Origin: Mariprofundus ferrooxydans PV-1
Lineage (GTDB): Bacteria; Pseudomonadota; Zetaproteobacteria; Mariprofundales; Mariprofundaceae
Assembly (NCBI RefSeq): GCF_000153765.1
Contig: NZ_DS022295.1
Span: 814,887-878,886, forward strand
DNA: 64,000 nt
Direction: 5' to 3'
Made by a program: the position numbers and the translations under genes. The notes under the pieces are model-generated. The model searched no databases and was not told where the DNA came from. It worked only from the letters and a program-made list of their open reading frames with translations. Below, piece after piece: positions 7,025 to 34,342 of the stretch; positions within the stretch are counted from its first letter, which is position 1, and every line of letters begins with the position of its first letter.

Positions 7025-8740
7025 CTAGTCAACGAGAGCACGAGCGCCGTCTGAGCGAACAATGGTCACATGCGTTCTCGCCCTTGTGATTGCAACGCGA
7101 AGCAAGCGGCGACTCCTTTCAAACGGCGGCTGCTCTCGGGTCATATCAAAGAAGAAACCGGAATAAGGACCTTCAACGATCACAACCCCATCGAATTCCT
7201 TGCCCTTTGATTTGTGCATGGACATCAATACGCAGCCTATAGGTTCTTGATCGGCCGCGATCAGACGCTCATATTCGAGCGTGTCGGTAACCAGTGAAGC
7301 TGCCCCTTGGTAATGCCCGGTCTCCAACCACAACTCTGCAAGTCCTGCACCTAACGTATCGGTAGCTCGAAACAGCCGCACCATCCGAGCTTCGCGATAC
7401 AGCTCATTCAGCGGACGAATGTCATTCAGCAGACTTCTCGCCGTCCGCCAATCGACCAACGGATCGCCGATAAACTCAACGCCTTCATCAAAGGCGGCAA
7501 GCAGACCTTTTGCAGCGTTTATGCGCGGATTCTCCGATTTGCGTACTTTCTCGCCATCCGCACGGAATTTTCTGACCTTTTCGAAAGCATCCTTTGACGG
7601 TGACGTTGCGTTCTTCAACTCATAAAAATGAGCGATTGCTTCCAACGTAACCGCAACAGGAGCTTCTGCGCTTTCATTCGACCATTCCATAATCGAGGCA
7701 ACGACAGCCCCTGCAGCAGCAGAAAGCTCAGCATCCCAGACTACGCTATGGTCAATCGGCGACAACTGCGTCCCGTTATATTCATTTGTCTCGCTCAGTA
7801 TTCCAGATATCTGGGCGACAAGGCGATTGCTGCGTGCCAAGATCGCCACACAGGGATCTTCTATACCTTCCTTGCGAAGTTTGCTCAAGGTCCATATCAC
7901 TGCTGCATGAACAGTCGCTGGAAACCTGTTCGATCTGTAGTATACAACTTTGACGTCATTAACCTCTGGAAGTGGAGATATGTTTCTCAGAACGGCATCA
8001 GCGAATCCCAATATCCCACCGCGCGGGCTTCGATGGTTTTCTCCTCCTAGATCAAAAGTTTGCGGTGCCACCGCATCACAGAGGCTCTCGATCCGCCGCG
8101 GGTCGATATCGTCCCGATAGTCGAATATGCGTTGATCCCGGTCAGCCAGGCAAAATACTCTCGTAACAGACGCTAGAGCCTTCACGATACGCCATTGCTC
8201 ATCGTCCGTATCCTGGAACTCATCAACGATGACAGTTGGATAACAATTAGCCAGAAGCTCCTTCAAAGCCGTGGAACGTTCCAGCAATTCCGCAACGCCG
8301 GAAGCAAAAAGATCAAAGCAATATCGTGCTTCGTCGTTCGCTAGTCGTGCTCGTTCTTCCTTCCAGTCGCCATCGAACTTAGCCTTCTCAAGTCGCTCCT
8401 GGGTAGGATACATTATCGATACAGCTTTGCCGGAGAGCAATTTGCCGTGGCTCTCCAGAAACTCCATACAGAATGCGTGATAGGTTCTGACTTCTATGGC
8501 GCGCCGCTCTTCCGCCGTGAGAATCTCTTGGCAGCCTTTGAGCACCTGACGAACGGCTGCTCGGGAAAAACTAAGAAACAGAAGCTTCTGACCCGGCAAC
8601 AGCGTTGGAAACAGGGTTTTGGCCTTTAGCAGCGCGATGGTTGTTTTCCCCGCACCGGGGCCGCCCAGAACAAGAATGTGACCCTCGGCGTTGAGAATGG
8701 CCCGTCGTTTTTCGTCCAGCTTGATCGATACCTCTAACCC
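7025..8740 (-). CDS. gajB: UvrD/REP-like helicase, GajB-like subunit of a Gabija-type system (start codon problem)
   Basis: The reading frame is open from 8740 and encodes ILVLGGPGAGKTTIAL (Walker A) near its N-terminus, FLSFSRAAVRQV (motif Ia), VIVDEFQDTDDEQW (motif II), CLADRDQRIFDYRDD (motif III) and MHKSKGKEFDGVVIVEG plus VAITRAR (motifs V-VI). This is a compact superfamily 1 helicase of about 570 residues, close to GajB. It directly follows a GajA-like gene. No ATG, GTG or TTG occurs in frame upstream of the Walker A motif. An ATG at 8744 lies in another frame, and removing one base near 8735 would join it to this frame. Either a one-base insertion, a sequence error, recoding or a non-canonical start is involved. 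Confidence 0.8.
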   Translation of the reverse strand, partial: GLEVSIKLDEKRRAILNAEGHILVLGGPGAGKTTIALLKAKTLFPTLLPGQKLLFLSFSRAAVRQVLKGCQEILTAEERRAIEVRTYHAFCMEFLESHGKLLSGKAVSIMYPTQERLEKAKFDGDWKEERARLANDEARYCFDLFASGVAELLERSTALKELLANCYPTVIVDEFQDTDDEQWRIVKALASVTRVFCLADRDQRIFDYRDDIDPRRIESLCDAVAPQTFDLGGENHRSPRGGILGFADAVLRNISPLPEVNDVKVVYYRSNRFPATVHAAVIWTLSKLRKEGIEDPCVAILARSNRLVAQISGILSETNEYNGTQLSPIDHSVVWDAELSAAAGAVVASIMEWSNESAEAPVAVTLEAIAHFYELKNATSPSKDAFEKVRKFRADGEKVRKSENPRINAAKGLLAAFDEGVEFIGDPLVDWRTARSLLNDIRPLNELYREARMVRLFRATDTLGAGLAELWLETGHYQGAASLVTDTLEYERLIAADQEPIGCVLMSMHKSKGKEFDGVVIVEGPYSGFFFDMTREQPPFERSRRLLRVAITRARTHVTIVRSDGARALVD

Positions 8741-10647
8741 TCATCGCCTTCCCGTGAGTCAGGTACAGTAGGCTCTAATGCTTCGGCCTCAGATATGTCG
8801 GTAGCTGCCGCCTCATTACCCTGGTTTGGTTCATCTTCTGATTCTGTGTCCATTACAAGGGATTGAAGTGTAGCATGAACCGACTCCAGAATCGTTCTAA
8901 TGGTGACAGGAAGCTCCGTTTCATTTTCGCATTCACTGATCAGAAGCGCCGCGTAAGGCTGGTTATCGCCTTTTCTTATCTTCAGCACTGCTTTGGTAAG
9001 TGCTTCTACATCGGCATCGCTCATGTTATCGTCAATAATTCTCTTATCAGCCGGGTAGTCGTCTCGGTCTTTCACGGAGTTAAGAAACCGACGCATCGTC
9101 GCGACTGGCATCTCACTTACGAGCACGGACTCGATCCCCTTCTCAGGGGACTCCCAAACTTGGGTGTAATCGGCCAGCTTCGCGGCGGTCGCCGCATCTG
9201 GCGCTACATCTTGTTTGTCGTAGAAGGCAAACGCAGGTTTACCCAACGCCTTAAAGAATGGCCCAAATATTGGCACTTCCTTATCGCTGCCGGCATTGAA
9301 AACCGTCACGCCAGCTAGATCAAGATGCTCATACTCCTCTCCAAGAGCGGACTCCATCACTTCCGAAGCAACAGGGAACAGGGCTGCCTCTGTCGCGCCT
9401 TCGACAACAATAACAGCGCGACTCAGAATGGCCTCGGCCATCTGACGCCGCTCTCGGCGGTATTTCTTTAGCTTGATGTCACCCAACTCGACGGTTCGAC
9501 TCGACAACACCGCATCGCTATTTCGGTCGAGGACGACGATTTGGGTCGGCTCAAACTGCTCAATGATGTAAGGTGAGTGAGAGGTAACAATCGCCTGCCC
9601 CATTTCTGAAAGGATAAAACGGATCACCCTCCGCTGCGTGTGGGGTGGCAACGCAATTTCGGGCTCCTCCATGGCGAATATCACGGAGCGATTACCTTTC
9701 AGGTCCGCGATAAACGTCAGAAGCGCGAACACAAGCAGGTTGATCGAACCTGTCCCCAACTTCTGAAATGGTACTTGATGCGGGGCTGGCTGGGCGGCAA
9801 GAAACAGACGGACTACGTCTCGTAAATGGTCTCGAGTCAGATCGGACGCAAAGAACCCGGTCGCGTCATCGTCTTCCGATAAATTTACGAAACGTGCCAA
9901 CCGCTTCCGAATTTCATCCCGGATCGTCTTGAGCTGCTCGATCTCTCCGATAGCTGGATCAAGACCACGCAATCCCGCCAGTGTTTTCTCCCACATCTCT
10001 GTGAGACCAGATCCATCTAAACGAAGGACTGTATCGAGCAACGAGCCGCGTTGCAGGCTCAATGCGCGTGAGCCCGTTCGCAAGGTGCGGAGGAAAATAA
10101 AGCCGCATAGCCGTTTTTGCTCCCGCCCAAATATCTTGCGACCGCCGCCAAGTTGCTGCTCAGCCGGCTCTTCCTCATCCATCTCATCGACCGGATGATC
10201 GAAGAAAGTGTTACCGATAAAATCATCCTCATCAGCCTCGTAGCGACCAATGAAGACAACAGGCAGCGCCCAAACCGTACCTTCAGCATCTGCCGCTTCC
10301 GGACCGTCGCCGGATTCATCGACAAACTGACCGTCAATGTCGTTCCAGCGCCGCAAGTGACGATGAAAACGCCTCTCCGCTTCCTCAGAAAGGTCGGTTA
10401 ACAGTGCTCGAATGATGATCTCTACTGGCTTATTATCCGCAGATAGATACTTCCCCTTGTAAAAGTCATGCTCGTCAATTACGGGTCTGCGGAATAAACG
10501 TTCCGGTCCAAGCACGAGATCAAGCGCCTCACAGACAGTCGATTTGCCAATGTTGTTCCCGCCAACCAATAGCGTGTGGCCACGAAAATCGACCTGCCCA
10601 GATCTAACCCCACGAAAATTCTCTATCGTCAGACGCCGCACACGCAT
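8734..10647 (-). CDS. gajA: OLD-family ATPase/TOPRIM endonuclease, GajA-like
   Basis: 637 residues. N-terminal ABC-type ATPase: Walker A GGNNIGKST at 29-37, signature-like GTGSIN at 298-303, Walker B VIFAMEEPE at 322-330 and a switch histidine in TSHSPY at about 357. C-terminal TOPRIM nuclease: VVEGATEAALFP with Glu416, then AFYDKQD with Asp477/Asp480. This architecture, followed directly by a UvrD-like helicase, defines Gabija. GajA is a nucleotide-inhibited DNA nicking enzyme activated on phage infection. The protein is longer than the about 580 residues of the type member, partly because of an acidic insert at 115-165 and an acidic tail. It lies 35 bases after res. Confidence 0.87.
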   Translation of the reverse strand: MRVRRLTIENFRGVRSGQVDFRGHTLLVGGNNIGKSTVCEALDLVLGPERLFRRPVIDEHDFYKGKYLSADNKPVEIIIRALLTDLSEEAERRFHRHLRRWNDIDGQFVDESGDGPEAADAEGTVWALPVVFIGRYEADEDDFIGNTFFDHPVDEMDEEEPAEQQLGGGRKIFGREQKRLCGFIFLRTLRTGSRALSLQRGSLLDTVLRLDGSGLTEMWEKTLAGLRGLDPAIGEIEQLKTIRDEIRKRLARFVNLSEDDDATGFFASDLTRDHLRDVVRLFLAAQPAPHQVPFQKLGTGSINLLVFALLTFIADLKGNRSVIFAMEEPEIALPPHTQRRVIRFILSEMGQAIVTSHSPYIIEQFEPTQIVVLDRNSDAVLSSRTVELGDIKLKKYRRERRQMAEAILSRAVIVVEGATEAALFPVASEVMESALGEEYEHLDLAGVTVFNAGSDKEVPIFGPFFKALGKPAFAFYDKQDVAPDAATAAKLADYTQVWESPEKGIESVLVSEMPVATMRRFLNSVKDRDDYPADKRIIDDNMSDADVEALTKAVLKIRKGDNQPYAALLISECENETELPVTIRTILESVHATLQSLVMDTESEDEPNQGNEAAATDISEAEALEPTVPDSREGDEG

Positions 10648-10682: not shown

Positions 10683-13664
10683 TTAGCCTCCTACCGGCAC
10701 ATCGCTCCACTGCTTGGCGACCACATATTTGGCTGGATCTGCATGTAGACTGGCAATCGCCTCAAAATGCTTTCTTCCGCAGGCAATCTTGGCACCTTCC
10801 TTGTGCCGCAGGTCATTAGCATGAACTGATCCTTTGGTTTCTATTACAAAATACAGCTTTTCGCCTTCATCTGTATCCACCAAGACAGCCCAGTCGGGAT
10901 TGTAGCTGCCGAGCGGCGTAGGCACTTTGAACCAGCCAGGCAGTTTGGCGTAGAGCTTGACGGCATCAAACTTTTCCATCTGCTCGGCGAATTCTCGTTC
11001 GGTATCAGAGTCGTATACCACGTGCTCAAACACCGATTTACTCGTGTTCTCCAGCATGTTCTTCAGGTAGCCGGAAAGCTCCTCTTGTTCGAACAGCTCC
11101 TGGGCATAGTATTCGCCCAATTGCTGGTATTTGATGCCGTCTACTAACGCCAGTTGCTTGGCTTTGTTGATGGCATCAGCTGCTAGATCGATAAAGGCTT
11201 GCGGGTTTCGCTTGAAATCGCCCAACCGACCGCTCTCCTTGACAATCCTTAACAAAGTGCGGCGGGTAAGGTGGGTGCGATCCTGGAGCTCGGTGAGCAA
11301 GTCCGGCAGCTCGATATCCTGTTCATCCAGAGTAATGGTTGCCGCACCGTCTTTTTCTTCCACTTCTACGCCTGCCTTGCCAATGGCAATATCGGCCTTG
11401 CGCCATTGCAAGCGAGTCTTGCTGATCTGTGGCGCCTCCTGAATCGACTTAACGCAATCGGCAATCAGTTTGTCATTGTCAAAGGCGACGCGATAGGTGG
11501 TTTTGTGTTTGATGCGATCCCAAAGCGCCTTGAAATCTTCGCTCAAGAAAACTTCCTTACGCAGTTTGACCTGGCGGCGCTCATCGGCATTTTTGACTTC
11601 AAGGCGCCCGGCCGCTTTCTTCAGGATGGCGGTAATGGCCTCTCTCTGTGGTTCAAACTCCGGCGGCAGTTCCAGCGTGTTCTCTTTGAGCGCGGTGCGG
11701 AGCAAATCTTGCACACGCTCCTTGCTATCCAGATAGCCCTTGTCTTTGAGAAAAGTCCAAAGCGTCTCTGACTGCTCCGCGCCTAAGGGCTGTTCCGAAC
11801 CATCGTCCGCCGATATGGGGATGGCTGCAAACTGGTGTTTTTCCACCACGCCAAAGCGAATGCCGGTATCTTCCTCAATCTCTCTCTGCAGATTCTTGGC
11901 AAAGTCTTCATAGCTCTCGTTAGCTACTACAGTTAGCGTATTGATTTCGTGACCGTGTACTCGATGGCCTGATTGATCCACGCATAAGCGCAGCCCGCGT
12001 CCGATCGACTGGCGCCGTTCTCGTTCCGTACGGATATCCCGCAGGGTACAAATCTGGAAGACATTAGGATTGTCCCAGCCTTCACGCAGCGCTGAGTGGG
12101 AGAAAATGAACTTCAGAGGCTCGTTCAGGTCCAGCAGCTTTTCCTTCTCCCGCATAATCAGGTTATAGGTGTCTTCATCTACCTTGCTGTCGCCTCGGGT
12201 ATCCTTGAACATCTCTACCGTTTTGCCGCCCACCTTTTTGCGGTCGATGGAGAAATAGCCGTTGTGGACTTGTTCAGCAAGGTATTCAACGGCTTCGTTT
12301 TCGAACAGCTCCTTGTACTTCGGCAGTCTAGCTACGCGAACAAACTCCTCTTCAAAAATCCTGGCATAGTCGCCCTTGACGGGATTGCCTTCCTCATCAT
12401 ACCGACGATACTTGGCGACCTCGTCGATAAAAAACAGCGACAGCACCTTGATGCCGCGTTCCCGCAGGCGAAGCTCCTTGTCCAGATGCTCCTTGATGGT
12501 GCGGCGGATCATCTGGCGGGCTAGCGCATTTTTATCAATATCACCATAGGCCTGGCCAGGCTGTAAGAAGACTTCCCCGCCAGGATAACGCAGTTCCATG
12601 TACTGGTTACCCTTGGCTACGGATATTTCACCAATGGAGTGGTTGGCATAAAGGTCACGACCAGTGGTTTGCTCCAGATCTTCGCCATCATAGACGGTAA
12701 TCTCCTTGCGTTTGACGCCAGATCGTGTCTGGATATCCAGCTCCACCACGGCCGAAATCACATTACGCTTGCTTTGCACCTTGACCAGCCGAACATAGGG
12801 CTTGTTGTGACCTGCCTCTACGGTAGCCGAGGCCACCTCGATTTGCTTGACCAACTTGCGCTCGTAAGCGTCAACGGCATCCAGGCGATAAACCATGTGA
12901 TGTTTGTGTATATGGGTGGCTGAATAGCGCAGGGTACAAAGCGGATTCATCGCTTCCAGCGCCTCTTTGCCCTTGCCCTTGAGGCCCCCGTCTACGCTTT
13001 GTGGCTCGTCCACGATCAGGATCGGTCGGGTGGCCCGAATTAGATCGATGGGCTTCTCGCCTCCGGTCTTTTCGTTATCCTTGTAAAGGTTGTTAACGTC
13101 TTTTTTGTTGATGGCACCAACAGTGACCACCATGATCTGGATAGTGGAACTGGTGGCAAAATTTTGCACGGATCCCGGCTTGGAACCGTCATAGATAAAG
13201 TATTCAAATGGCACACCGGCATAGAGGCTTTTAAAATGCTCTTCAGTCATCTGTAAGGTTTTGTACACCCCTTCCTTGATGGCTACCGATGGCACCACAA
13301 TCACAAACTTGGTAAAACCGTAGTGTTTATTGAGCTCGAAAATGGTGCGCAGATAGACATAGGTCTTGCCGGTGCCGGTCTCCATCTCCACGGTGAAGTC
13401 GCCGGAGCGCAATGCGGAGTCGATGGGCAGGCCGTTACGCAGCTGCACCGCTTGCAGGTTTTTTAGAATCTCATCATCTAGCAAGGTCAACCGGTTGCCT
13501 ATCCCAAACGCTTCCTCTTGATATGCCAGCGCCAACTGGCCATCTACCGCACCTTGCATAACGGTAAACTCGGTTCGGCACATTTCCTGACCCCGAAATA
13601 AGTCGCAGACAGATTCGATGGCCTGTAATTGAAAGTCGAGATTAGGTTCAAAATGCAGTTTCAT
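10683..13664 (-). CDS. type III restriction enzyme, Res subunit
   Basis: 993 residues. Superfamily 2 helicase with Walker A GTGKT at 97-101, DEPQ at 219-222 (the Res form of the DEAD box), SHSALREGWDNPNVFQICTL and RRQSIGRGLRLCVD (motif VI). The C-terminal nuclease keeps a PD-ExK arrangement (NPDW with Asp924, then VIETKG with Glu942 and Lys944). Res needs a Mod subunit for DNA recognition and cleaves between head-to-head unmethylated sites. The mod gene just upstream is broken by an insertion sequence, so Res is probably inactive at present although intact itself. It begins 11 bases after the mod stop. Confidence 0.93.
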   Translation of the reverse strand: MKLHFEPNLDFQLQAIESVCDLFRGQEMCRTEFTVMQGAVDGQLALAYQEEAFGIGNRLTLLDDEILKNLQAVQLRNGLPIDSALRSGDFTVEMETGTGKTYVYLRTIFELNKHYGFTKFVIVVPSVAIKEGVYKTLQMTEEHFKSLYAGVPFEYFIYDGSKPGSVQNFATSSTIQIMVVTVGAINKKDVNNLYKDNEKTGGEKPIDLIRATRPILIVDEPQSVDGGLKGKGKEALEAMNPLCTLRYSATHIHKHHMVYRLDAVDAYERKLVKQIEVASATVEAGHNKPYVRLVKVQSKRNVISAVVELDIQTRSGVKRKEITVYDGEDLEQTTGRDLYANHSIGEISVAKGNQYMELRYPGGEVFLQPGQAYGDIDKNALARQMIRRTIKEHLDKELRLRERGIKVLSLFFIDEVAKYRRYDEEGNPVKGDYARIFEEEFVRVARLPKYKELFENEAVEYLAEQVHNGYFSIDRKKVGGKTVEMFKDTRGDSKVDEDTYNLIMREKEKLLDLNEPLKFIFSHSALREGWDNPNVFQICTLRDIRTERERRQSIGRGLRLCVDQSGHRVHGHEINTLTVVANESYEDFAKNLQREIEEDTGIRFGVVEKHQFAAIPISADDGSEQPLGAEQSETLWTFLKDKGYLDSKERVQDLLRTALKENTLELPPEFEPQREAITAILKKAAGRLEVKNADERRQVKLRKEVFLSEDFKALWDRIKHKTTYRVAFDNDKLIADCVKSIQEAPQISKTRLQWRKADIAIGKAGVEVEEKDGAATITLDEQDIELPDLLTELQDRTHLTRRTLLRIVKESGRLGDFKRNPQAFIDLAADAINKAKQLALVDGIKYQQLGEYYAQELFEQEELSGYLKNMLENTSKSVFEHVVYDSDTEREFAEQMEKFDAVKLYAKLPGWFKVPTPLGSYNPDWAVLVDTDEGEKLYFVIETKGSVHANDLRHKEGAKIACGRKHFEAIASLHADPAKYVVAKQWSDVPVGG

Positions 13665-14431
13665 GGCCGCCCTCCTTAGATGCTACGCACATTCACAATG
13701 CCAGCCTGTTCCAGAATGGCGGCCAGGTTGGTTTTGGCGACGTCGTTTTCAAAGGCGCTGTCGCGGAAGACGCAGGTGGTATCCCCGGCCGGCGCGAGTG
13801 CCTTGTGCCACGTTACAATGCCCTGGCCCAGGGCTTCTACTTCATCGGTTGTGATTTTCTCGGCCAGGCAGGCCATTAGTACGCCGCCGCCAATGGCATG
13901 GACAGTTTTACCGACAAGGGTCTTTTCTTCGATGGGTACACATAGATCCAGCCCCAATTTCAGCAGCAGTTCATAGAGCAGATCCGCCTCAGTACGGTCG
14001 GGCAGGATGTGGTCCATATGATCCACCAGATCGGCTTCCAGGTCGTTGGTTCTGGGATTCCATGCCTTGATATTGGAGCTGTCCAGCTTGAAGACGCGGA
14101 AGCCTGTGTCGCCGTTCCAGTCTGGGTGTTCTTCTTTGATCTTCTTGGCTGCGCGGCGTAGGCGTTCCTTGGTGAGCTCGGCAATGGTGCGGGGCTTGCC
14201 CAGCTTGTCGCAGTACTCGGCAGCCGTTTTCTGTTCTTTCTTTTCCGGATCTAGCGGCTCGGGGAGCTGGACGAGGATGTAGCGGCGGTTGCCGCCGTCC
14301 TTGGCGTTTTGCGCCATCACTGCGTGACCTGTTGTGCCGGAGCCTGCGAAGAAGTCGAGAACTATATCATTGTCTAGAGTGTTTGAAACAGAGATTATGC
14401 TTTGTATCAATTCAATAGGCTTTGGATTGTC

Positions 14432-14439
14432 AAAAACTT
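14432..14439. repeat. target-site duplication of the IS256-family element, left copy
   Basis: AAAAACTT directly abuts the left end of the element and is identical to 15754-15761. Eight bp is normal for IS256-family insertions. Confidence 0.93.
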
Positions 14440-15753
14440 GAGCCTGTAAATCTATCTGTGTAAATAGCCATCTCAGATTCTCTCCGGCATTCGATCCGGA
14501 AACTCGATCATAAAGCGGTTCAGTGCGGCTTTCCAGTCGCGAATGGGCATGGTCCATTTTTTGGCCGCAGCCTCGATGGCCAGCCAGACGACCTTCATGG
14601 CCGCCTGATCGTTTGGGAATACCTTGCGATTCTTGATGGCCTTGCGAATCACGCTGTTGAGCGATTCGATCGCATTGGTCGTGTAAATGACCTTGCGGAT
14701 CTCATCAGGATATTCAAAAATCGTGATCAGATTTGGCCAATGCCTGCGCCACATGATGCTGATGGACGGATATTTTCCATCCCATTTCTCAGCAAAGATA
14801 TCCAACTCCCGTTCAGCTTCTTCCACAGTGACCGACTGGTAAATCCTACGCAAATCCGTAGCCACGTGCTTGCGATCCTTCCAGGCAACAAAGCGCAAGG
14901 CGTTGCGCACCATGTGCACGATGCATAGCTGCACCTTCGTTTGCGGGAACACCGCGTTGATGGCGTCCGGAAAGCCCGTCAGGCCGTCCACACAGGCGAT
15001 AAAGGCATCTTGCATACCCCGGTTCTTCAGCTCCGTCAGCACTGAAAGCCAGAACTTCGCACCCTCGTTCTCGGACAGCCAAAGACCGAGAACTTCCTTC
15101 TCGCCCTCAAGATTGATGCCCAAGGCAATATAGATGGCCTTGTTCAGAACCCGCTTATCCTGGCGAATCTTCACCACGATGCAGTCCAGATACAGAATCG
15201 GATACAGAGTATCCAGTGGACGGTTCTGCCACTCAACAACCCGTTCCAGTACAGATTCGGTTACCTTGGAAATCAATCCGGCAGAAACATCGGCGCCGTA
15301 CATCTCCTTAAATGCGGCCACAATGTCCCGTGTACTCATGCCCTTGGCATATAAGGCCAGAATCTGATCATCAAATTGCGTCAGACGACTCTGGCCCTTC
15401 TCCACAATACGAGGCTCAAAGCTCGAATGACGATCCCGGGGGACCTCAATCTCGACTTCACCGTGCCCACCAATCAGGCGCTTGGTTGAATAACCATTGC
15501 GGCTGTTAGATGAATCGCTGCGCTCGCTCGGGGCATAGCCCAGATGTGCTTCCATTTCTCCACCAAGCGCCGCCTCAACTGTCATCTTCACCAGGTCTCG
15601 GCTCAGATTAGACAAATCTTCTTCGGTCTTGACGTGCTTCGCCAGCTCACGGGCAATCGCTTCAAGCTCGTTTCGTTTCTCATTCTTCTTCATAAATGCT
15701 CCTTCCTCAGTTCTTGCTGAGTAAAGCATTTACACAGTTCAATTTACAGCCTC
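14440..15753 (-). mobile_element. complete IS256-family insertion sequence inside mod
   Basis: 1314 bp. The ends are imperfect inverted repeats (14440-14465 and 15728-15753), matching at 22 of 26 positions and both starting GAG[CG]CTGTAAAT. A single intact transposase gene fills the element. The perfect 8-bp flanking duplication and open transposase suggest recent insertion. The element lies in the same transcriptional direction as the host operon. Confidence 0.95.
14473..15693 (-). CDS. IS256-family (mutator-type) DDE transposase
   Basis: 406 residues, normal length for the family. Seen motifs include the N-terminal LVKMTVEAALGGEMEAHLGY, YLDCIVVKIRQDK with the first Asp, AFIACVDGLTGFPDAI with the second Asp, CIVHMVRNALRFVAWKDRK and YTTNAIESLNSVIRK with the Glu. 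It excises and inserts the element. The ATG at 15693 is preceded by GGAAGGAG; an in-frame TTG at 15729 adds 12 residues without a ribosome-binding site. The gene appears intact. Confidence 0.95.
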   Translation of the reverse strand: MKKNEKRNELEAIARELAKHVKTEEDLSNLSRDLVKMTVEAALGGEMEAHLGYAPSERSDSSNSRNGYSTKRLIGGHGEVEIEVPRDRHSSFEPRIVEKGQSRLTQFDDQILALYAKGMSTRDIVAAFKEMYGADVSAGLISKVTESVLERVVEWQNRPLDTLYPILYLDCIVVKIRQDKRVLNKAIYIALGINLEGEKEVLGLWLSENEGAKFWLSVLTELKNRGMQDAFIACVDGLTGFPDAINAVFPQTKVQLCIVHMVRNALRFVAWKDRKHVATDLRRIYQSVTVEEAERELDIFAEKWDGKYPSISIMWRRHWPNLITIFEYPDEIRKVIYTTNAIESLNSVIRKAIKNRKVFPNDQAAMKVVWLAIEAAAKKWTMPIRDWKAALNRFMIEFPDRMPERI

Positions 15754-15761
15754 AAAAACTT
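15754..15761. repeat. target-site duplication of the IS256-family element, right copy
   Basis: AAAAACTT, identical to 14432-14439. On the mod strand it reads AAGTTTTT and supplies the codons for K-V-F at the joint. Confidence 0.93.
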
Positions 15762-16929
15762 TCTTCTCTCCAAATAGGGTCTCGACAAGGGAAGTAGCCG
15801 CTTGATTGTGGCCAAATCTGTCATGTGGCCACCAGTTTGTTGCACATTGGCCCTCTGCTTCTCTCTCCATTCTGAAATACTTTTTTCTCGGAGCGCCGTT
15901 GCCTCCATTTGGGAATATTATCCTGTTATCTTTGAGTAGTTTCTGAAAGGTCCCTTCATCGCCCATCCATTCTTCATCATACACTTTCCCCGTTGGCGTT
16001 GTAATCTTATACCTTGAGCCAGATTGACCACTTCCCACTTTCCAAGGCTTCGAGGCCCATTCACCCCGAGGGTCATTATCAGGGTTAGAAAAATTCCCCG
16101 TAACCTCGACTTTCCCGACGCCAGCGGCCTTATAAGCCTCCTTGTTTTTTGCGTAACACAAAATATGCTCTGCTACCAATGCAAGCATTTTGTTCTTGTC
16201 ATTTGGTTGATTGTGCCTGCGACGCCAATGTATGTGACCCTCAAAATTCTCTTCTCCGTAAATTTCATTAAGAATGCTTTTTAAATTCGAAACTTCCGCG
16301 TCGTCGATACTAATAAAAATCAATCCGTCTTCTCGTAATAAATTCCTTGCCAACTTTAGCCGCGGATACATCATATTCAGCCAATCTGTATGAAACCGCC
16401 CGCTGGCCTCGGTGTTAGTAGTCAGCGGCGAACCTGCCTCGTCCACCTGGCCGGTCAACTTTTTATAGTTCTTGATATTGTCCCGAAAGTCGTCCTTGTA
16501 CACGAAATCCTTCCCGGTGTTATACGGCGGGTCGATATAGATGAGCTTCACCTTGCCGGCATAGCTCTTTTGCAAAAGTTTGAGTACCTCCAGGTTGTCG
16601 CCTTCGATAAAGAGGTTTTGGGTGGTGTCCCAGTTTTCGCTCTCTTCCGGCGCCGGGCGAAGGGTTCCGGTGGAAGGCGTCAAGGCCAGTTGGCGGGCGC
16701 GGCGCTTGCCGAACCAGTTGAGGCCGTATTTTTCGTCGCAGTCAGTAACGGTTTGGTCGCCTACCAAAGCTTTAAGCACATCCACATTGACCGAAAGGCC
16801 TTCCGGGCCTTCGGTAATCAGTTCCGGAAATAGGCTTTTGAGGGTTTCGATATTTTCGGCAATCAAATTGGCCGATTGGGCTTGAGAATGATCAGGGGTG
16901 ATTTTTTCCATGGTCATGGACGGGACTCC

Positions 16930-17694
16930 TTAGGTTAATTGTTCCAGCAGAGCGCTGCGTAGCGCCTCGAGCTGTTTGATTTGTAAATTCAGTTCCACCT
17001 GCCGTGCCATTTGGCGTTCTCTGGCCGCCTGTTTACGAAGACGAGCGATTTCGTTAGCGAGTTCGCGCGCCTTGTGCAGCTGTTGCCGTTGTTCCGGCAA
17101 TCGGTCAATGCTTTGTGGCGAGCGGTATTGTCCTGCTTCGTGCCAGGTTTCCAAGGCCAGCAGGCAGGCAAGCCAACCCTGATATAAAGCAAAGAGGTGA
17201 TTTTGCGGCTGGTTGTTCAATGCCAAATCGTGAAAAAAGGCATCCGGGGCGTCGTCAAGAACAGGCGTGATATGAGGGTAGCTATCCTCCAAAACCATTT
17301 TGTCTTTTTCGTTTTGCGCCCAGCGCTTGTACGCAAGCGACAGCGATAGCGCATCTTCCTGCTCGATGATTAGCAATACAGGATAGGGAATGGCACGGTG
17401 GAGCAGTTCAATCAGGCGGGTTGCCTTGGTCCCTGACTTTAAGGTGTTGCGCAGTTGCAGCTGGAGCACGGCAATTTCCAGGTATTCGCGCTGTTCGTCG
17501 GCAAAGGCCGGCACGCCGATGGTATTGGGCTTGAGAGAAGCCAGCCACCAAAGCCCTTCAATGCCTTCCTTGATTGCCCGCCGGTCGGTGGCGGTGGTGG
17601 CCGCCTGTTCGCTGAGTACTGTTTTGGGGACTTTCTGATCTACGTGGCTACTCATCGGTAGCGCGAGTGCTTCGCTCAACTGCAGGGCGTTCAT
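16930..17694 (-). CDS. DUF4391-type protein of the type III-like defence operon
   Basis: 254 residues, resembling DUF4391 proteins that accompany SNF2-like helicases and type III Mod/Res genes. It contains an IDRLPEQRQQ linker and ends in a long charged helix (about 205-254, ARLRKQAARERQMARQVELN then LQIKQLEALRSALLEQLT) likely to form a coiled coil. No catalytic motif is evident. Its start overlaps the helicase stop by four bases and its stop is 12 bases before mod, so co-expression and probably a shared complex are expected. The biochemical role is unknown. Confidence 0.72.
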   Translation of the reverse strand: MNALQLSEALALPMSSHVDQKVPKTVLSEQAATTATDRRAIKEGIEGLWWLASLKPNTIGVPAFADEQREYLEIAVLQLQLRNTLKSGTKATRLIELLHRAIPYPVLLIIEQEDALSLSLAYKRWAQNEKDKMVLEDSYPHITPVLDDAPDAFFHDLALNNQPQNHLFALYQGWLACLLALETWHEAGQYRSPQSIDRLPEQRQQLHKARELANEIARLRKQAARERQMARQVELNLQIKQLEALRSALLEQLT

Positions 17695-20600
17695 TGCGCT
17701 TCCTCCGGCAAAATCACCAGCCAGGCGATGACTTCCACATCGTCTTGTCCAGCAAACTCACCCTTGAGTGCATGCGTACCGCCCGGGCTGAACAGGCTCT
17801 CAATGGCCCGCTCTTGGCTTTTCCCGGCAATAGAGGCGGCGGCCTCTGCGAGCAGCTTCTGCGCCTTGCGCATGTCGGCGCCGTTTTTGGTTTGGCGGTT
17901 CCAGCGACTGATGGCATTTGAGTCGGGTATCTCTTTGCCCATGCAGGTGCGTTTGAGCAGGTCCAGGCTCTTCTTGGCCTGGGTATAGGGCAGGTGGATG
18001 GCGCCGTCTTCGGTCACATGAACCAAGGCATAGGGGGCCAACGGGTAGCCGGGCTCAAATACCCGCTCGGCGGCTTTACCTGTCACTTGCAGGCAAAACA
18101 GGATACCCGGTGGGATATCTGCGTCGCTTGCTGTTGTCACGGCAAAGACCCCAAGCGGCAGGCGCTCCAGGGTATCTGGATTCTCTTTGAGGTAGCGGGC
18201 CAGATCCATGCGGAAATCGGACAGGGTGAGGTCGGTGATGGAGATTCCGGTGGATAGATCCTCCAGATCGATCACCGTCTCCTGCAATTTGAGCAGCTGC
18301 TTGCGGCGGTATTCGAGATCATTCATGGGGTCGCCCGATTGGGCCTCGATCAGGTTCTCCTCGCCGGTCGCAGAAATATCCAACAGCACCATGCGGCCAC
18401 TCACCCGGGCTTCCAGGTTGATGTATTCATCCAGTTCCATGTTGGGCCAGAAGTTGACCAGCTGGATTCGGGTATTGGGCGATCCGATACGATCAATACG
18501 GCCAAAGCGCTGAATGATGCGCACCGGGTTCCAGTGAATGTCGTAATTGATGAGCCAGTCGCAGTCTTGCAGGTTTTGCCCTTCGGAGATGCAGTCGGTA
18601 GCGATGAGCAGATCTATCTCGCCTTCGCCGGCAAGCTCGATCGGGCGTTCCTTGGCGCGGGGCGCAAAGGCGCTGAGGGTTGATGCCATATCTCGGCGGA
18701 TTCCTGGCAAAGTCGTTTGAATTCCCCCCGTGCCAGTAACCAGCGCCGTGTGGATACCGTGCTGAGCCTTGGCCCAGTTTGCAAGTTGATCATACAGATA
18801 ACGGGCGGTGTCTGCGAAGGCAGAAAAAACGATCACCTTGCGATTGTTCGGATTGATCGGTTGCTCGATTTTACGGGCAATAATCGTTTTGATGGCTTGT
18901 AGCTTGGCATCTTTCTCCGGAGAGACTGCCCGTGCAGCGGCCAGTAGCATCTTGAGGCGGTTACGATCCTCACGAAGGTCTTGACGCCAGCGGATACGAT
19001 CAACATCTTGCAGCAGTACCTTAACTTTTCTTCCAACCAGCAAGCTTTCGAAGGTGGGATCCTCGATATCCACATCACTGATATCGATCTCACTCACCTC
19101 TTGAGTCTCCACGGCCTCGATCTTTTCCAGCAGGCGTTCCACATCCGCCAACTGTCGTTCCAACGTCAATGCAAAGGCGTGGACGGAGCTCTCCATGCGC
19201 TTGAGCAGGTTGACACGCATGAGCTGAACCAAGCTTTCTTCCCGATCGGCTTGTCGGAATATGGATTCGCCGCCACGAATTCGGGTGCTGTACTTGGCGT
19301 CGTACTCAGCACGTTTGCTTTCCAGTACGTAGCGCAGGGGTGCATAGGCTGCCAGACTCAGCCGACGAATCTCACGATTGATTTGTTCAATGGGAGGAAA
19401 TTTGCCTTGGGTATCAACGTCGGGCTTGACGTTGATTGGTTTGAGGCGCTCAGGAAACTGGCCCGTTTCGGCGATGCCGTAATATTTTTCAATGTGTTTG
19501 CGCGAGCGGGCGATGGTCAATAAATCCAGCAGTTTGAAGTAGTCAAAGCCCAACATTTCCATCAGGCGCGCAGGCGTGCGTTCGGCTGCTGGCTGATCAA
19601 GCCAGCGATTGAACTGTTTCTGGGCATGGCGCGTGGTGGCATCAATGCTCCTGATACCGTGATCCCACAAAGCGTCATCCTCCCCTTCCGTAATGAAGGC
19701 GATTTGGTTCTTGAGATCGGCAAGCCGGTTGTTGACGGGGGTTGCCGAGAGCATCAGCACCCGCGTTTTCACGCCTTCACGGATGATGCGCCGCATAAGG
19801 CGGTCATAGCGACTCTCACGGTCCTTATAACTGGCCTTGTTACGGAAGTTATGGGATTCGTCGATCACAACCAGGTCATAGTTGCCCCAGTTGATATGGG
19901 TCAGGTCGATGTCGCCTGACATCCCCTGGTCACGGGATAAATCGGTGTGATTGAGCACATCGTAATTGAACCGGTCATCCGCAAGAGGATTGCGCCGGTC
20001 ATTGGCACGATACAGGGTCCAGTTGTCACGCAGGCGTTTGGGCGCTAGTACCAGCACTCGGTCATTTCGAAGCTCGTGATACTTGATGACTGCAAGCGCT
20101 TCGAAGGTTTTGCCCAAGCCGACGCTGTCCGCGATGATGCAACCTCCAAATCTGTTGAGTTTGTCAATTGCGCCAATGACTGCATCTTTTTGGAACTTAT
20201 ACAGTTTTTTCCATACCTTGGTTTGATGGATACCTGTAGCTGCTTTGATAACCTGGTCTTCATCCAGTGAACCATCACGGTCCTTGAACAGGCTGTACAA
20301 TATCAAGGCGTAGATGTCATAGGGTGCCCGATCCGCGGATATTTCCCGAAGGGCGTGCACCAGAACTGAGTCTCGAACCTTAACCGGAGGAAGCATTTGC
20401 CATTGTTGTTCAAACCAGGCAGATAGTTGTGCTGCCTCATCCTCCGATTCCGTAGCCTGAATCAGTCCAAGGGGGTTGCCCGGTGTCAGGCCAAGTCCAT
20501 CGGTCGTCAGAGCGACTGCCCCCACCAATGCCTTTTTTGCTGCACAATCCTTGCTTTGGACCACAATCATTCCTTGCGGCATTCCCCCCGATATCTGGCG

Positions 20601-20897
20601 AACCTCCGCGCATGACGCAATCCAGGATTCACATTGCCTGGCATGCCAATGGTTTTGTAGTTGATTGCGAAAAGAACGTGCAGCCTCGTTACCCAACAAT
20701 TCCAAACCTTCTTCAGATGAAGAGACGATTCGGGCTGTTAACTCACCTTGTACTGTTTCCACTAGGCGCCACATGGCAAACAGCGATATTTTGGGGGTCA
20801 ATACAGCGATACAATCGCCAGGAGACAGCGCCTCACCGACCTCATCAATCACCCGGCTCGCCCCACTATTCTGGATCAATCGCATTGCTTCATGCAC
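17691..20897 (-). CDS. SNF2-like superfamily 2 helicase/translocase, first gene of the defence operon
   Basis: 1068 residues. The N-terminal about 165 residues look like a PLD-type domain without an obvious HKD motif. Then come FQKDAVIGAIDKLNRFGGCI (Q-motif region), ADSVGLGKT (Walker A, 258-264), VVIDESHNFRN (motif II), MLSATPVNN (motif III), and in the C-terminal lobe IDLLIATDCISEGQNLQDCD and RIIQRFGRIDRIGS (motifs V-VI). The family uses ATP to move on duplex DNA. Homologous genes commonly stand beside DUF4391, Mod and Res genes; here all are in one direction with overlaps or short gaps. A sensing or translocation role in defence is an inference. Confidence 0.85.
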   Translation of the reverse strand: MHEAMRLIQNSGASRVIDEVGEALSPGDCIAVLTPKISLFAMWRLVETVQGELTARIVSSSEEGLELLGNEAARSFRNQLQNHWHARQCESWIASCAEVRQISGGMPQGMIVVQSKDCAAKKALVGAVALTTDGLGLTPGNPLGLIQATESEDEAAQLSAWFEQQWQMLPPVKVRDSVLVHALREISADRAPYDIYALILYSLFKDRDGSLDEDQVIKAATGIHQTKVWKKLYKFQKDAVIGAIDKLNRFGGCIIADSVGLGKTFEALAVIKYHELRNDRVLVLAPKRLRDNWTLYRANDRRNPLADDRFNYDVLNHTDLSRDQGMSGDIDLTHINWGNYDLVVIDESHNFRNKASYKDRESRYDRLMRRIIREGVKTRVLMLSATPVNNRLADLKNQIAFITEGEDDALWDHGIRSIDATTRHAQKQFNRWLDQPAAERTPARLMEMLGFDYFKLLDLLTIARSRKHIEKYYGIAETGQFPERLKPINVKPDVDTQGKFPPIEQINREIRRLSLAAYAPLRYVLESKRAEYDAKYSTRIRGGESIFRQADREESLVQLMRVNLLKRMESSVHAFALTLERQLADVERLLEKIEAVETQEVSEIDISDVDIEDPTFESLLVGRKVKVLLQDVDRIRWRQDLREDRNRLKMLLAAARAVSPEKDAKLQAIKTIIARKIEQPINPNNRKVIVFSAFADTARYLYDQLANWAKAQHGIHTALVTGTGGIQTTLPGIRRDMASTLSAFAPRAKERPIELAGEGEIDLLIATDCISEGQNLQDCDWLINYDIHWNPVRIIQRFGRIDRIGSPNTRIQLVNFWPNMELDEYINLEARVSGRMVLLDISATGEENLIEAQSGDPMNDLEYRRKQLLKLQETVIDLEDLSTGISITDLTLSDFRMDLARYLKENPDTLERLPLGVFAVTTASDADIPPGILFCLQVTGKAAERVFEPGYPLAPYALVHVTEDGAIHLPYTQAKKSLDLLKRTCMGKEIPDSNAISRWNRQTKNGADMRKAQKLLAEAAASIAGKSQERAIESLFSPGGTHALKGEFAGQDDVEVIAWLVILPEEAQ

Positions 20898-22391: not shown

Positions 22392-23516
22392 TTACTCTTC
22401 TTGAATCTCGATATCCTCCGGCCTGATCCCGATGGCGAAGGCTTGGGCGTAGCCGTCTCCACCGCGTCGTTTGACGAGACCGGCCACGATATCCTCGATC
22501 ACATGACCTCGAATCGTGACGCGCCTGCCTGCCGCCAGCGCGGTGCGCGCAGCCTCCAGCGCGTCGGACAATGCCTTGATCTCTTTGGACCGCTTGCGCT
22601 CTTGTGCCTCGACATCTACAAACAGCCCCTTTCGCGCACGTTCCACCAGTCTTGCAAGATAGCCCAGCGGGTTGCGCACATTGCTGGCGCCGGCCAGTGC
22701 GTCCAGGAGAGGTTGGCGCAATGAGGAGGGAGCGGCTCTCAGAATCGCCTCCGCATGCTTTTCCATGCCCCGCAGGGCATCCGGCCATGTGTATTGAACA
22801 TTGACGCCCTCGGGCGGTTCAGACTGAACCAGCGTCTGGTCCACGCGGGAGGCGGCGTCCAGCAACGGCACCAGCCCTGTCTTCGGCGGCATGGCGTTTT
22901 CATTAAGATTCCTGCGTATCCCGGCAAGCAGGTCGTCGTCCCCATCCTCGCTGCGGCGCATCAGGCGTTTCAGGACAAGGGTCGCGACTTCGCTCACCCG
23001 CTTCTTTGATGGTCCGGCTTGCTGCGCCATGCGCCTGAGCATGGCCAGGTAATCCGGCGCGAGCAGCATGGTTTCGGATACGGGCAAGGGTAAGGCGTGC
23101 AGCAGGTAGTAGTTGCCGATCACATTGCCGTGTTCATCCCGAACCCGGCGCACGGCGTGCAGCCAGCGGGTCGCCTGGAGCACATCAATCGCGTTCTGGA
23201 TCGTGGGTCGACTTACCCGGACAAGTCGCGCCAGGCGGGAGATGCTGGGCCACGCGCCGTCCTCGCCCGGTTGGCCGATATGCGTGCGAATGACCTGCCA
23301 CACCAGCTTTTCGGTCGGATTCAGCAGCGGGTCGAGAATCAACCGGCGTGGAATCGAATCGTGCCAGCTCCCTGTATAGACGACATGCTCCTGATCCTTC
23401 CCCGCATGCCGATCCTTGCGGTAGGCCAGCATGCGCTGGATGCCCCCTTGAATGCGCCAGCCTTTCTCAGTCTGCGTCACGGGGGATGGCCTTCCGGCCG
23501 GCGTCGCCATTCCCAT
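22392..23516 (-). CDS. STY4528-family genomic-island replication protein
   Basis: 374 residues. It has the family's start block TGSWHDSIPRRLILDPLLNP with LVWQVIRTHIG, a winged-helix segment (WPSISRLARLVRVSRPTIQN) and a C-terminal helical tail rich in Glu/Arg. STY4528 proteins are annotated as pathogenicity-island replication proteins and sit in PFGI-1/SPI-7-type elements. ATG at 23516 follows GGGGGAG by seven bases; the open frame extends to 23738 without a site. The start overlaps the upstream DUF2857 gene by 50 bases, so the two are probably coupled. Palindrome copy 3 lies inside this gene. Confidence 0.85.
   Translation of the reverse strand: MGMATPAGRPSPVTQTEKGWRIQGGIQRMLAYRKDRHAGKDQEHVVYTGSWHDSIPRRLILDPLLNPTEKLVWQVIRTHIGQPGEDGAWPSISRLARLVRVSRPTIQNAIDVLQATRWLHAVRRVRDEHGNVIGNYYLLHALPLPVSETMLLAPDYLAMLRRMAQQAGPSKKRVSEVATLVLKRLMRRSEDGDDDLLAGIRRNLNENAMPPKTGLVPLLDAASRVDQTLVQSEPPEGVNVQYTWPDALRGMEKHAEAILRAAPSSLRQPLLDALAGASNVRNPLGYLARLVERARKGLFVDVEAQERKRSKEIKALSDALEAARTALAAGRRVTIRGHVIEDIVAGLVKRRGGDGYAQAFAIGIRPEDIEIQEE
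22816..22830. repeat. palindromic motif copy 3, GGTTCAGACTGAACC
   Basis: Identical to copy 1. It lies inside the STY4528-family coding sequence, in a segment encoding VQSEPPEG, so it is not confined to promoters. Confidence 0.85.
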
Positions 23517-24021
23517 GCCTGTTCTCCCCCAGGGTGCGACTCTTGATCTCGTTCCAGATGACGGGCAGCGGCATCTCCATGCGCTTGGCGATATGCAGGA
23601 AGCGCTCCCTTTCCTCCATTTGCCGACAGGAAAGCCACATATCCCATATCCGTGACGATTCGTAGGGCAGCGGCTTGCACGGCCTGCCACCCTGATTGGG
23701 TACGCCAAGCTCACCGCGCAGGCGGGTGGTATCCTCACGGTTCATGCCGAAGAGCGATTTCATCATCGCGGTCGATGCTCCGTGCCGGATATATTCATGG
23801 ATGAGCTGACGATCCTTCTTCACCAGGTCAACCCGCCGCAGCGCCCGATTGAGTTCGTCCTCGTGCAGCGAAATCGAGAAAATTCTGCACCGACATCCGG
23901 CCAGAAGCTCCATGTCCTGCATCGTCAGCGCCTGCAGCTTCCGCCGCATATCGGGAGATATGTCCGAGTCTTCCTGGCTCATCACGACCCGGAACAGGTG
24001 AAACATGCTCTCTCCGTTCAT
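23467..24021 (-). CDS. DUF2857 family ICE protein
   Basis: 184 residues matching the DUF2857 family found between parB and the STY4528 gene in PFGI-1/SPI-7-like elements. The central HTH-like segment (HEYIRHGASTAMMKSLFGMN, then TRLRGELGVPNQGGRPCK) suggests DNA binding and recalls transcription activators of the FlhC type. It overlaps parB by four bases (ATGA at 24018-24021) and the next gene by 50 bases, so it belongs to a tight parA-parB-DUF2857-STY4528 operon. Function is otherwise unknown. Confidence 0.8.
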   Translation of the reverse strand: MNGESMFHLFRVVMSQEDSDISPDMRRKLQALTMQDMELLAGCRCRIFSISLHEDELNRALRRVDLVKKDRQLIHEYIRHGASTAMMKSLFGMNREDTTRLRGELGVPNQGGRPCKPLPYESSRIWDMWLSCRQMEERERFLHIAKRMEMPLPVIWNEIKSRTLGENRHGNGDAGRKAIPRDAD

Positions 24022-25322
24022 GCGCCGGCTCCGGAATCAAGCCGGTTCTGCGTTTCCATGATCAGCACATTGTCCAGGGCAAACGGATCGGAAACGCCCG
24101 TTTCGTTCCTGGTGCGCAGGGTCGCCTGTACAATATGCCGGACGTTGCGTAGCAGTTCCAGCAAACGGTCGGCATCCTCGTCATTGAGCCCGCACCACAC
24201 CGACAGAGAAATACTGCTGTCCCTTCCCGTCTGGAAGGCCGATATGGCGGCCAGGAACCCCTTGTCACCAAGACGCGCGGCGTCGCCCTCGCCCAGTTCG
24301 AATCCGAATCCGCTGTCGTAAGGCCTGACATTCGCCCGGCCATCGGCCAGCGCCATGGCCAGCTCGTAATTCCTGGGACGAAGCATGATGATGCGTTGCA
24401 GAAGACGTATGGGCTCCGGCGTGGGCCGGCTGGTCTGGCCGTCATCGCCCGTGTTGAAAGACGAGGCTTTGCCGGTGACGTTTCCCGCGGGCTGGGATGC
24501 GGCGCTCGCTTCATCCGGTTCAGGCTGAACCGGGATCTCCTTCCGAATGCGCTGAAGGGCCGAAACGATCTTCGAAGGATCATCGTCGCACGACATGAAG
24601 CCTTCCCGGATCGCATCTTCATGCTTGCGCAGGAACAGACTCAGTTTTTCTCCGGCATATGACGCCCATTCGGAGAAGGCGCTTTTGATCGTTTGCACAT
24701 GGTGCGGACCAAGCGATCGCAACAGTCCGTCGGGCATCAGGTCGGCCAGAATCTCGACAAGATCCTTCATCCTCGCCAGCTGGGCGTGCGAGAACGTCAA
24801 TCCCCGTTCCGGCAGCATGCGCTCGAACTCGCGCCAGGAAAGGCTTTCGCCGCATTCCTCTTCCACGACTTTCTTCAATGAATGGATGGCTTGCGCCTTG
24901 TCCGCGAAGCACATCTCCCCGCGCAACTCGTTCTCGGCGATATGCGCCGACAAGACACTGGCATCGCCCGGCCACGGCTTGAACAACACCTGCACGCGCC
25001 AGAATCGTTCATCACCCGTTTCTCTCCAGAGTTCGTTCAGAATGTGCAGGCGCGTGTTGCCGCCGGATTCGATGATGTAATGGTCATCGCCCGGACGCTG
25101 GGTGACCGTGAACGGATTACGGATACCGACCGCCGCGATGGACGCCTTCAATTCCTCGTAACGGGGATGGTCGGTCTGTCTGGGATTGCGCTCGTAAGGG
25201 CGGATTTGATCCAGTGTCAGCATGATCTGCACAGGAAGAAGCGGTGCAGCCGATGCAATCCGGTCGGTTTCGGGCGGCTTGAAATAACCGGTTTGCAGGC
25301 TGCTTCTTACATCAACCTCCAT
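24018..25322 (-). CDS. parB: ParB-family partition protein, PFGI-1 class
   Basis: 434 residues. An N-terminal ParB/sulfiredoxin-like domain is seen in YERNPRQTDHPRYEELKASI, AVGIRNPFTVTQRPGDDHYI and ESGGNTRLHILNEL. It is followed by a helix-turn-helix region (LSWREFERMLPERGLTFSHA, QLARMKDLVEIL), matching the ParB family of PFGI_1-class ICEs. It would bind a parS-like site and act with ParA to keep the excised element. Palindrome copy 4 lies within its own gene (24517), which makes that motif a candidate binding site. It starts 12 bases after the parA stop. Confidence 0.87.
   Translation of the reverse strand: MEVDVRSSLQTGYFKPPETDRIASAAPLLPVQIMLTLDQIRPYERNPRQTDHPRYEELKASIAAVGIRNPFTVTQRPGDDHYIIESGGNTRLHILNELWRETGDERFWRVQVLFKPWPGDASVLSAHIAENELRGEMCFADKAQAIHSLKKVVEEECGESLSWREFERMLPERGLTFSHAQLARMKDLVEILADLMPDGLLRSLGPHHVQTIKSAFSEWASYAGEKLSLFLRKHEDAIREGFMSCDDDPSKIVSALQRIRKEIPVQPEPDEASAASQPAGNVTGKASSFNTGDDGQTSRPTPEPIRLLQRIIMLRPRNYELAMALADGRANVRPYDSGFGFELGEGDAARLGDKGFLAAISAFQTGRDSSISLSVWCGLNDEDADRLLELLRNVRHIVQATLRTRNETGVSDPFALDNVLIMETQNRLDSGAGA
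24517..24531. repeat. palindromic motif copy 4, GGTTCAGGCTGAACC
   Basis: Fourth copy of the palindrome, inside parB (coding for VQPEPDE). Only the central base differs from the other copies. Confidence 0.85.
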
Positions 25323-25334
25323 CCCCGATTTTCC

Positions 25335-26165
25335 TCAGATCGAAGCAACCGCGGGATCGGGTTGAAGTGAATCCGGAGCGTCACCGCCCAGCAGCTCCCC
25401 GGCCAGCCCCTCCATCACTTCCGCGCCGCAGGGCGACGCTCCTCTGCGCCCGACATCCAGTCGATGCACCGGAATTTGCCGGGTCGCCGACTCGCGGTAC
25501 GCCTTGGCGGCCGGCACCCAAGTCTTCAGAAGCGAAAAACCGGACTCATCCTGGAAGTCGGCCATACGGAACTGCTCCGCGATGCGTCTAGCGTCGCGCG
25601 TGCGATCCATCCGGTACAGCACAGCTTTCAACGGCGGCGGTGTGGCGCCGATAAAGCCCAGCATGGGGTTGATCTTCTCCAGAACGAAGCGCATGCCGCG
25701 CATGAATTCCCGTGCTGAAAGAATTTCCGATGGCACGGGACTGACGATCATATCCGCGGCCACCACCGCCGCTTCCAGCAATGGGCTGGCCGCGCCCTGG
25801 GTATCAATCAGGACGATGTCATAATGCTTCCGGAAATCGTTCACCGCCGCCCGCATGCGCAACCGGCCGTCCGGCTGTCGCATGATCCATTCATGTAGCC
25901 TTCCGTCCGGATCGTCCGAGTAGACGATGTCCATCTCCTGGGCGGGAATCCGACTGACAGACATGTCGGTGTTCAGTTCCGTCATCATTGAGGTCAATCC
26001 GGATTGGTTTGCCTCGATGGGGAAATAGTTGGAAAGCGTCGGCTGGATATCCGCGTCGATCAGCAGCACCCGCCAGCCGCAGTCGGCCAGATATGCTCCC
26101 AGATTGGCTGCCAGCGTCGTTTTACCGCTGCCCCCTTTGGTATTCGCTATCGCAATGCAGGTCAT
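25335..26165 (-). CDS. parA: ParA-family partition ATPase of the ICE
   Basis: 276 residues from ATG 26165, which follows GGAGGG closely. The deviant Walker A KGGSGKTT appears at residues 10-17, then LLIDADIQPTLSNYF (Walker A') and VLIDTQGAASPLLE (Walker B). The C-terminus has the RREGATRQIPVHRLD-like region seen here as RESATRQIPVHRLD, typical of mobile-element ParA proteins. With ParB it should partition the circular form or help retain it during cell division. It heads the parA-parB-DUF2857-STY4528-PFL_4669 gene string. Confidence 0.9.
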   Translation of the reverse strand: MTCIAIANTKGGSGKTTLAANLGAYLADCGWRVLLIDADIQPTLSNYFPIEANQSGLTSMMTELNTDMSVSRIPAQEMDIVYSDDPDGRLHEWIMRQPDGRLRMRAAVNDFRKHYDIVLIDTQGAASPLLEAAVVAADMIVSPVPSEILSAREFMRGMRFVLEKINPMLGFIGATPPPLKAVLYRMDRTRDARRIAEQFRMADFQDESGFSLLKTWVPAAKAYRESATRQIPVHRLDVGRRGASPCGAEVMEGLAGELLGGDAPDSLQPDPAVASI

Positions 26166-26322
26166 GGTCCCTCCTTGGTCTGTTTCTCCTTTTTTGTTCA
26201 TTTTTGATGTTTCCGGTCAGTATTCCTGCTGAAAAACAAGAAATTTGCTGGCCGGCCAGCATGCAAAAGCAAGGTGATGGACAATCCCACATACGATATG
26301 CCGTGTTTCGCACGCACTGGAT

Positions 26323-26562
26323 CTAACCGGATTTCATTGCTGGCTTCATGCGTGGCCGACCACGCCTCTTGGGCGCAGGCCGCTCGACTTGCTGGACCTT
26401 GCTTTCCAGCCACCGCCTCACGTCTTCCTCGCGAAACAGAATGGTCCTGCCTGTCTTGATGAATGGGGGGAGTTCCTCGCGTCGCCAGAGGCGGTTGAGA
26501 ATGGTCTTTCGGCTTACTCGCAGGTATTCGGCCAGATCATCCACCGACCACATGACATCCAT
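26323..26562 (-). CDS. AlpA/excisionase-like helix-turn-helix protein
   Basis: 79 residues. MWSVDDLAEYLRVSRKTILN then RREELPPFIKTGRTILFREE is a MerR-type winged helix as in AlpA and excisionases, followed by a basic tail (PAPKRRGRPRMKP) resembling an AT-hook. ATG at 26562 follows AGGAGG by six bases. Placed between the recombinase gene and parA on the same strand, it probably controls excision or the parA operon; that role is inferred. Confidence 0.82.
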   Translation of the reverse strand: MDVMWSVDDLAEYLRVSRKTILNRLWRREELPPFIKTGRTILFREEDVRRWLESKVQQVERPAPKRRGRPRMKPAMKSG

Positions 26563-26712
26563 AAGCTGCCTCCTGTCATTGGAATGACGGGGCATTGTCG
26601 GCGTTGCAATGCAGCTGTCAGAAAACCTTCCGGGGATCAGCGATGGGTTTTCAGGATATTGCGGGATCGAATGGTCGTGGAATCAGCTTGATGCGATCGA
26701 AGATACTGCCAC

Positions 26713-27645: not shown

Positions 27646-27746
27646 GCCGGAAGTCTGCGTCTGTCTTTAAGCGCATGAGGCGAAACCATCGGCGAATCCC
27701 GGGAATGTTTTGAGCTCAACTCCTCCCGCCATGCCAGCGTTGCGAC

Positions 27747-34056: not shown

Positions 34057-34342
34057 GGCTTTCTCCGGAAAAATCATTACAACAAGAGAATTATAATTAT
34101 ATTATGGAGCAATCCAAGAAAAATGATTACATGAAGCCGTGCTTTACCACTTCCGGCCACCAGAGAAAAATGGTTACAGTAACAGAAATATAGTTATAAA
34201 GCCCACTTGTTCGGGTAATTTCATTACGCCAGATTCGTTTATGTTGCGAGAGGCCCCTGACAGATGCGGTCCGGAGCACATCGCATCCCTGAAGCGGCTG
34301 ACGTTGCACCCCTTGCGATTCATGAAGCCGCTTGCCGACCCC

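Follow-up and report, generated by a model that had tools for sequence, protein, structure and literature searches.

An apparently recent IS256-family insertion interrupts mod in a four-gene type III restriction-modification cassette of Mariprofundus ferrooxydans PV-1

Type III restriction, a common antiphage defence of bacteria, requires both the Mod and the Res subunits, and methylation is generally carried out by Mod alone (PMC8259958). Mod also stabilizes Res, and r+m− mutants of EcoP1 have never been recovered (PMC3874151). In EcoP15I Mod, the target recognition domain (TRD) covers residues 263–384, and the second part of the methyltransferase, with motifs X and I–III, covers residues 390–516 (PMC4490356). 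An extra helicase-like ATPase encoded upstream of mod is known from m4C-producing type III systems in more than 500 genomes (PMC8259958). Insertion and clean excision of IS256 switch biofilm genes in Staphylococcus epidermidis (PMC11178275); the same paper, citing Hennig and Ziebuhr (2008), describes clean excision as rare and independent of transposition and transposase.

The window analyzed here is a stretch of 64,000 nucleotides from M. ferrooxydans PV-1. It contains a run of minus-strand genes in the order SNF2-type helicase, DUF4391 protein, mod 5′ piece, insertion element, mod 3′ piece, res, GajA-like gene, and GajB-like gene (Table 1).

Table 1. Positions in the window of the cassette genes, the element and the neighboring genes; the last row gives a second element copy elsewhere in the genome
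Feature	Position	Strand	Evidence and remarks
SNF2-type helicase, 1068 aa, first cassette gene	17691–20897	−	PDLC01075 'HKD+Snf2', 410.9 bits
DUF4391 protein, 254 aa, second cassette gene	16930–17694	−	PF14335, 222.5 bits
mod 5′ piece: N-terminal domain, motif IV DPPY, target recognition region	15762–16917	−	PDLC03634, 478 bits, profile 3–390
Target duplication AAAAACTT, copy 1	15754–15761		Sequence
IS256-family insertion element, 1314 bp	14440–15753	−	Same orientation as operon; inverted-repeat ends
Intact transposase, 418 aa	14473–15729	−	NF033543, 428 bits; PF00872, 399 bits
Target duplication AAAAACTT, copy 2	14432–14439		Sequence
mod 3′ piece: NPK motif X region, FAGSGTTG motif I, C-terminal domain	13676–14439	−	PDLC03634, 300 bits, profile 384–621
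res, type III restriction subunit, 993 aa, intact	10683–13664	−	PDLC03647, 1332.6 bits; PF19778, PF04851
GajA-like gene	8734–10647	−	810 bits; starts 35 bp after res
GajB-like gene	About 7025–8728	−	686 bits
Second element copy (L001)	G000:C4:1034903–1036216		Duplication TCACCCCC; interrupts GspE/PilB-type ATPase frame

The helicase, DUF4391, mod, and res genes form a conserved cassette (10683–20897) with relatives from many phyla. We fetched 80 relatives of mod, which were accompanied by homologues of the helicase (62), DUF4391 (65), and Res (72), and all three partners were present in 38 of the 51 relatives with full flanks; these proportions are valid for this Mod family and not for type III systems generally, because the relatives were picked by similarity to this Mod. 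An independent search from DUF4391 gave 19 loci in other genomes, most of them with a helicase before, mod after, or both. The same order occurs in a GenBank plasmid, where the genes are annotated as helicase-related, DUF4391, site-specific DNA-methyltransferase, and DEAD/DEAH helicase. Paraburkholderia plasmid pOLGA2 (L135) is among the relatives with an intact cassette. Our literature search for DUF4391 returned only one passing mention. That a helicase and a DUF4391 protein accompany a type III system in many phyla is the more useful by-product of the analysis. The helicase also matched DrmD, more weakly (164.9 bits vs. a cut-off of 610). DISARM, which such matches suggested, was rejected: the DrmD scores were far under the cut-offs, and the run had no DrmA, DrmB, or DrmC genes.

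Res matches a PADLOC type III Res model (PDLC03647), and its comparison with EcoP15I Res (4zcf_C) gave an E value of 3.6e-70. Adjacent to mod, it combines an SF2 helicase motor (PF04851) with a PD-(D/E)XK endonuclease domain (PF19778). A sequence-only reading of the window had described a mod–res locus with an intact Res; the integrity of Res and the adjacency of the two genes stood, but the unit is the larger four-gene cassette.

The element was assigned to the IS256 family by a profile search, in which its transposase far exceeded the cut-off of NF033543 (transpos_IS256; 150 bits) and also matched PF00872. Its ends are GAGCCTGTAAATCTATCTGTGTAAAT and, as reverse complement, GAGGCTGTAAATTGAACTGTGTAAAT, which form imperfect terminal inverted repeats of about 26 bp. 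AAAAACTT abuts the element on each side as a perfect 8-bp duplication, and the probability that 8 bp at fixed boundaries match exactly by chance is about 1.5e-5. A Mutator-type (IS256) transposase, terminal inverted repeats, and target duplications of 8–9 bp, the marks of the family, are thus all present, as the sequence-only reading had claimed for the insertion and its perfect duplication. A scan for promoters and terminators around the element showed no clear excess over shuffled sequences.

The whole genome (2.99 Mb, four contigs) was searched for other copies. It has exactly three Transposase_mut genes, every one within a copy of the element, and the three full copies are 100% identical over 1314 bp. 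The other two carry duplications of their own (TCACCCCC twice and GAGTAAAC twice), and the target duplications of the three copies are unrelated sequences. An element with 73% identity from another genome (L107) has AGCTTATT on both sides. Since duplications flank all three copies as well as this relative, the ends of the element can be taken as fixed. A misassembled junction is unlikely, because a different matching duplication flanks each of the three copies and the mod flanks are collinear with intact relatives. One of the other copies (L001) splits a 641-aa frame immediately ahead of the GPTGSGKT Walker A motif; the name GspE/PilB-type ATPase given to this frame comes from motif recognition, with no database search behind it. 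In the genomes of the genus that were searched, no high-identity full copy of the element was found elsewhere. The identity of the three copies shows that the element was mobile lately.

Each of the two Mod pieces has matches to EcoP15I Mod (4zcf) and to the 6k0w Mod. The broken 5′ ORF (15739–16917) stops four codons inside the end of the element. When the flanks were joined by script with one copy of the duplication, they gave a frame of 1920 nt whose only stop is the terminal one, coding for 639 residues with KKVFDNPKP at residue 385. The first piece carries DPPY and the second FAGSGTTG, which is the beta-class order; as in type III Mods, DPPY precedes and an FxGxG motif I follows the recognition domain, here with the motifs split over two pieces. 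We looked for further stops or frameshifts within the mod pieces and found none. The proposals that an empty site would restore a 639-residue Mod in one open frame, with KKVFDNPKP and with both methylase motifs in the right order, were therefore confirmed.

Both mod pieces could be located in 77 of the 80 relatives, and the join was open in 74 of these; two had a frameshift and one a stop. The two pieces directly abut in the intact relatives. In the closest one (L027, 74% identity) they match adjacent DNA, and in L027 and L036 they overlap by exactly 6 nt, which are two codons inside the duplication. The element lies close to motif X, a few residues ahead of its NPK, and would separate the target-recognition half of Mod from its SAM-binding half. 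The genome has no other PF01555 methylase, so no paralogue replaces Mod. Methylases of the PF02384 type are encoded elsewhere in it and would contribute other motifs to its methylome. A single intact mod gene is missing here, and the locus is a broken member of type III and not an active system.

The insertion is young by the state of its target. The mod pieces have no stop or frameshift, and they keep all 104 of their near-invariant residues (66/66 and 38/38); in the helicase 377 of 378 such residues are conserved, and in Res 304 of 308. A random single substitution in the mod frame has a chance of about 3.8% of creating a stop, so that a stop would be expected with 95% probability after some 78 neutral substitutions (about 4% divergence). 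An old, decaying pseudogene is ruled out by the near-invariant residues and the intact reading frames of both pieces. The absence of decay, together with the three identical copies, bears out the earlier view that the insertion looks recent.

Our results make it very probable that a recent IS256 insertion inactivates mod in the four-gene type III cassette, an ordinary loss of function. The element would have transposed recently into the third gene of the helicase–DUF4391–mod–res cassette and split Mod before motif X, so that no functional Mod would be made. Res would then lack a partner for site recognition and would probably be unstable; restriction would be lost along with modification, a loss that the cell would tolerate and that only rare precise excision would reverse. 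Such a joint loss is expected and tolerable, because restriction needs Mod, Mod stabilizes Res, and EcoP1 r+m− mutants were never obtained. The same literature (PMC8259958; PMC3874151) is in line with the earlier suggestion that Res is disabled along with Mod, which we infer from it for this locus. The type III system is almost certainly switched off by the insertion, judged from its sequence. Before the interruption the modification was probably m6A, to which the FAGSG form of motif I points; m4C is disfavored, as motif I is not FGG (PMC8259958). The event is an ordinary recent insertion in a defence system, and a clean example of such a system being disabled the safe way, via its methylase. 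Our literature search for insertion elements in mod genes found no report.

The insertion may have happened in the laboratory, with a burst of transposition in a domesticated isolate that struck mod and the gene of the GspE/PilB-type ATPase, both costly. The three identical copies, the location of one of them in a secretion/pilus-type ATPase gene beside the Walker A motif, and the lack of a high-identity full copy in the rest of the genus would all suit this explanation, which we hold to be possible but the less likely course; identical copies fit nature as well as culture, and nothing separates the two. It concerns the timing of the event and is compatible with the loss of function described above.

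The sequence-only reading had added that precise excision could switch the system back on. Exact restoration is indeed possible in principle, because the flanks are perfect, but the evidence did not bear out a working switch, in which filled and empty alleles would exist in populations and excision would restore mod often enough to matter. Besides the perfect duplication and the undamaged flanks, which permit exact restoration, such a switch has precedents in the phase variation of S. epidermidis by insertion and excision of IS256 (Ziebuhr 1999, as cited by PMC9296519 and PMC5065196) and in the well-known phase-variable type III mod genes (PMC3874151). However, clean excision of IS256 is rare and independent of transposition (PMC11178275), and no element-free allele of the locus was present among the 61 genomes searched, where the nearest mod relatives were at most 58% identical; among the 22 genomes of the same genus, the closest (G011) had only 52% identity. 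The three copies also lie in unrelated target sites, with no preferred mod site seen. A programmed switch is thus unsupported, given the rarity of clean excision and the failure to find an element-free locus, and we consider it highly improbable. Equally little credence goes to the broader idea that the element gates the whole four-gene antiphage cassette, perhaps with the Gabija genes behind it, and that a minority of cells are element-free. If mod were restored, both subunits would become active at once in a genome that lacks methylation. The locus offers a natural empty-versus-filled comparison for asking whether type III systems are gated by insertion elements.

The least credible alternative is a split methyltransferase, in which both Mod pieces are made and reassemble and the system is not off: the break between the target recognition region and motif X is a domain border in EcoP15I Mod (PMC4490356), and a 293-aa ORF with its ATG inside the element (14557) spans the entire C-terminal half, but this ATG is out of frame with the transposase gene that it overlaps, lacks a nearby Shine–Dalgarno sequence (GAGG is about 13 nt away), and would add about 40 foreign residues, and a young insertion leaves little time for selection to shape a split form.

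The Gabija-like pair (7025–10647) follows res immediately on the same strand, and the element could therefore be polar on it also. Gabija found no support as a part of the cassette, as GajA- and GajB-like genes rarely accompany it in relatives. By profile (positions 2–568) GajB has a complete frame, but its first ATG, GTG, or TTG comes no earlier than about codon 44 (8599–8740); an ATG that overlaps the gajA stop is in a different frame from GajB. Either a non-canonical start or a frameshift may be involved.

A few kilobases from the restriction cassette, an ArdC-type anti-restriction protein (ArdcN and zincin domains) is encoded at 4082–4978. Mobile-element genes occupy 22392–30879 and include a ParA-like gene (25335–26201) and a TraD/TraG-like coupling protein gene (28831–30879), which suggests that the defence genes lie in or beside an integrative element. 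A Fic-domain protein (32527–34077) matches the phage-defence candidate PDC-S24 with 629 bits, and an AbiEi-type antitoxin (121–741) and a GNAT acetyltransferase (31706–32218) are possible toxin–antitoxin parts of the same island.

The insertion resembles those of staphylococcal IS256 in ica and sarA (PMC11178275; PMC5065196) in transposase family, inverted-repeat ends, 8-bp duplication, and gene inactivation. It differs in genus and target gene, and the staphylococcal genes are occasionally restored, whereas no excision was seen at this locus. The cassette shares a helicase-like ATPase gene upstream of mod and res with the m4C systems Eco86II and BspHIV (PMC8259958), a likeness that does not imply orthology of the helicases. 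Their Mods have FGG as motif I and produce m4C, whereas the Mod here has FAGSG, and PMC8259958 mentions no DUF4391 gene. The proteins also resemble those of EcoP15I and EcoP1 (Mod2Res1): both EcoP15I subunits have sequence matches here, in the Mod pieces and in Res, the order is beta-class, with the TRD between motifs IV–VIII and motifs X and I–III (PMC4490356), and the motifs are of the DPPY and FAGSG types. Unlike in these systems, mod is interrupted here, and an SNF2-type helicase and a DUF4391 protein precede it.
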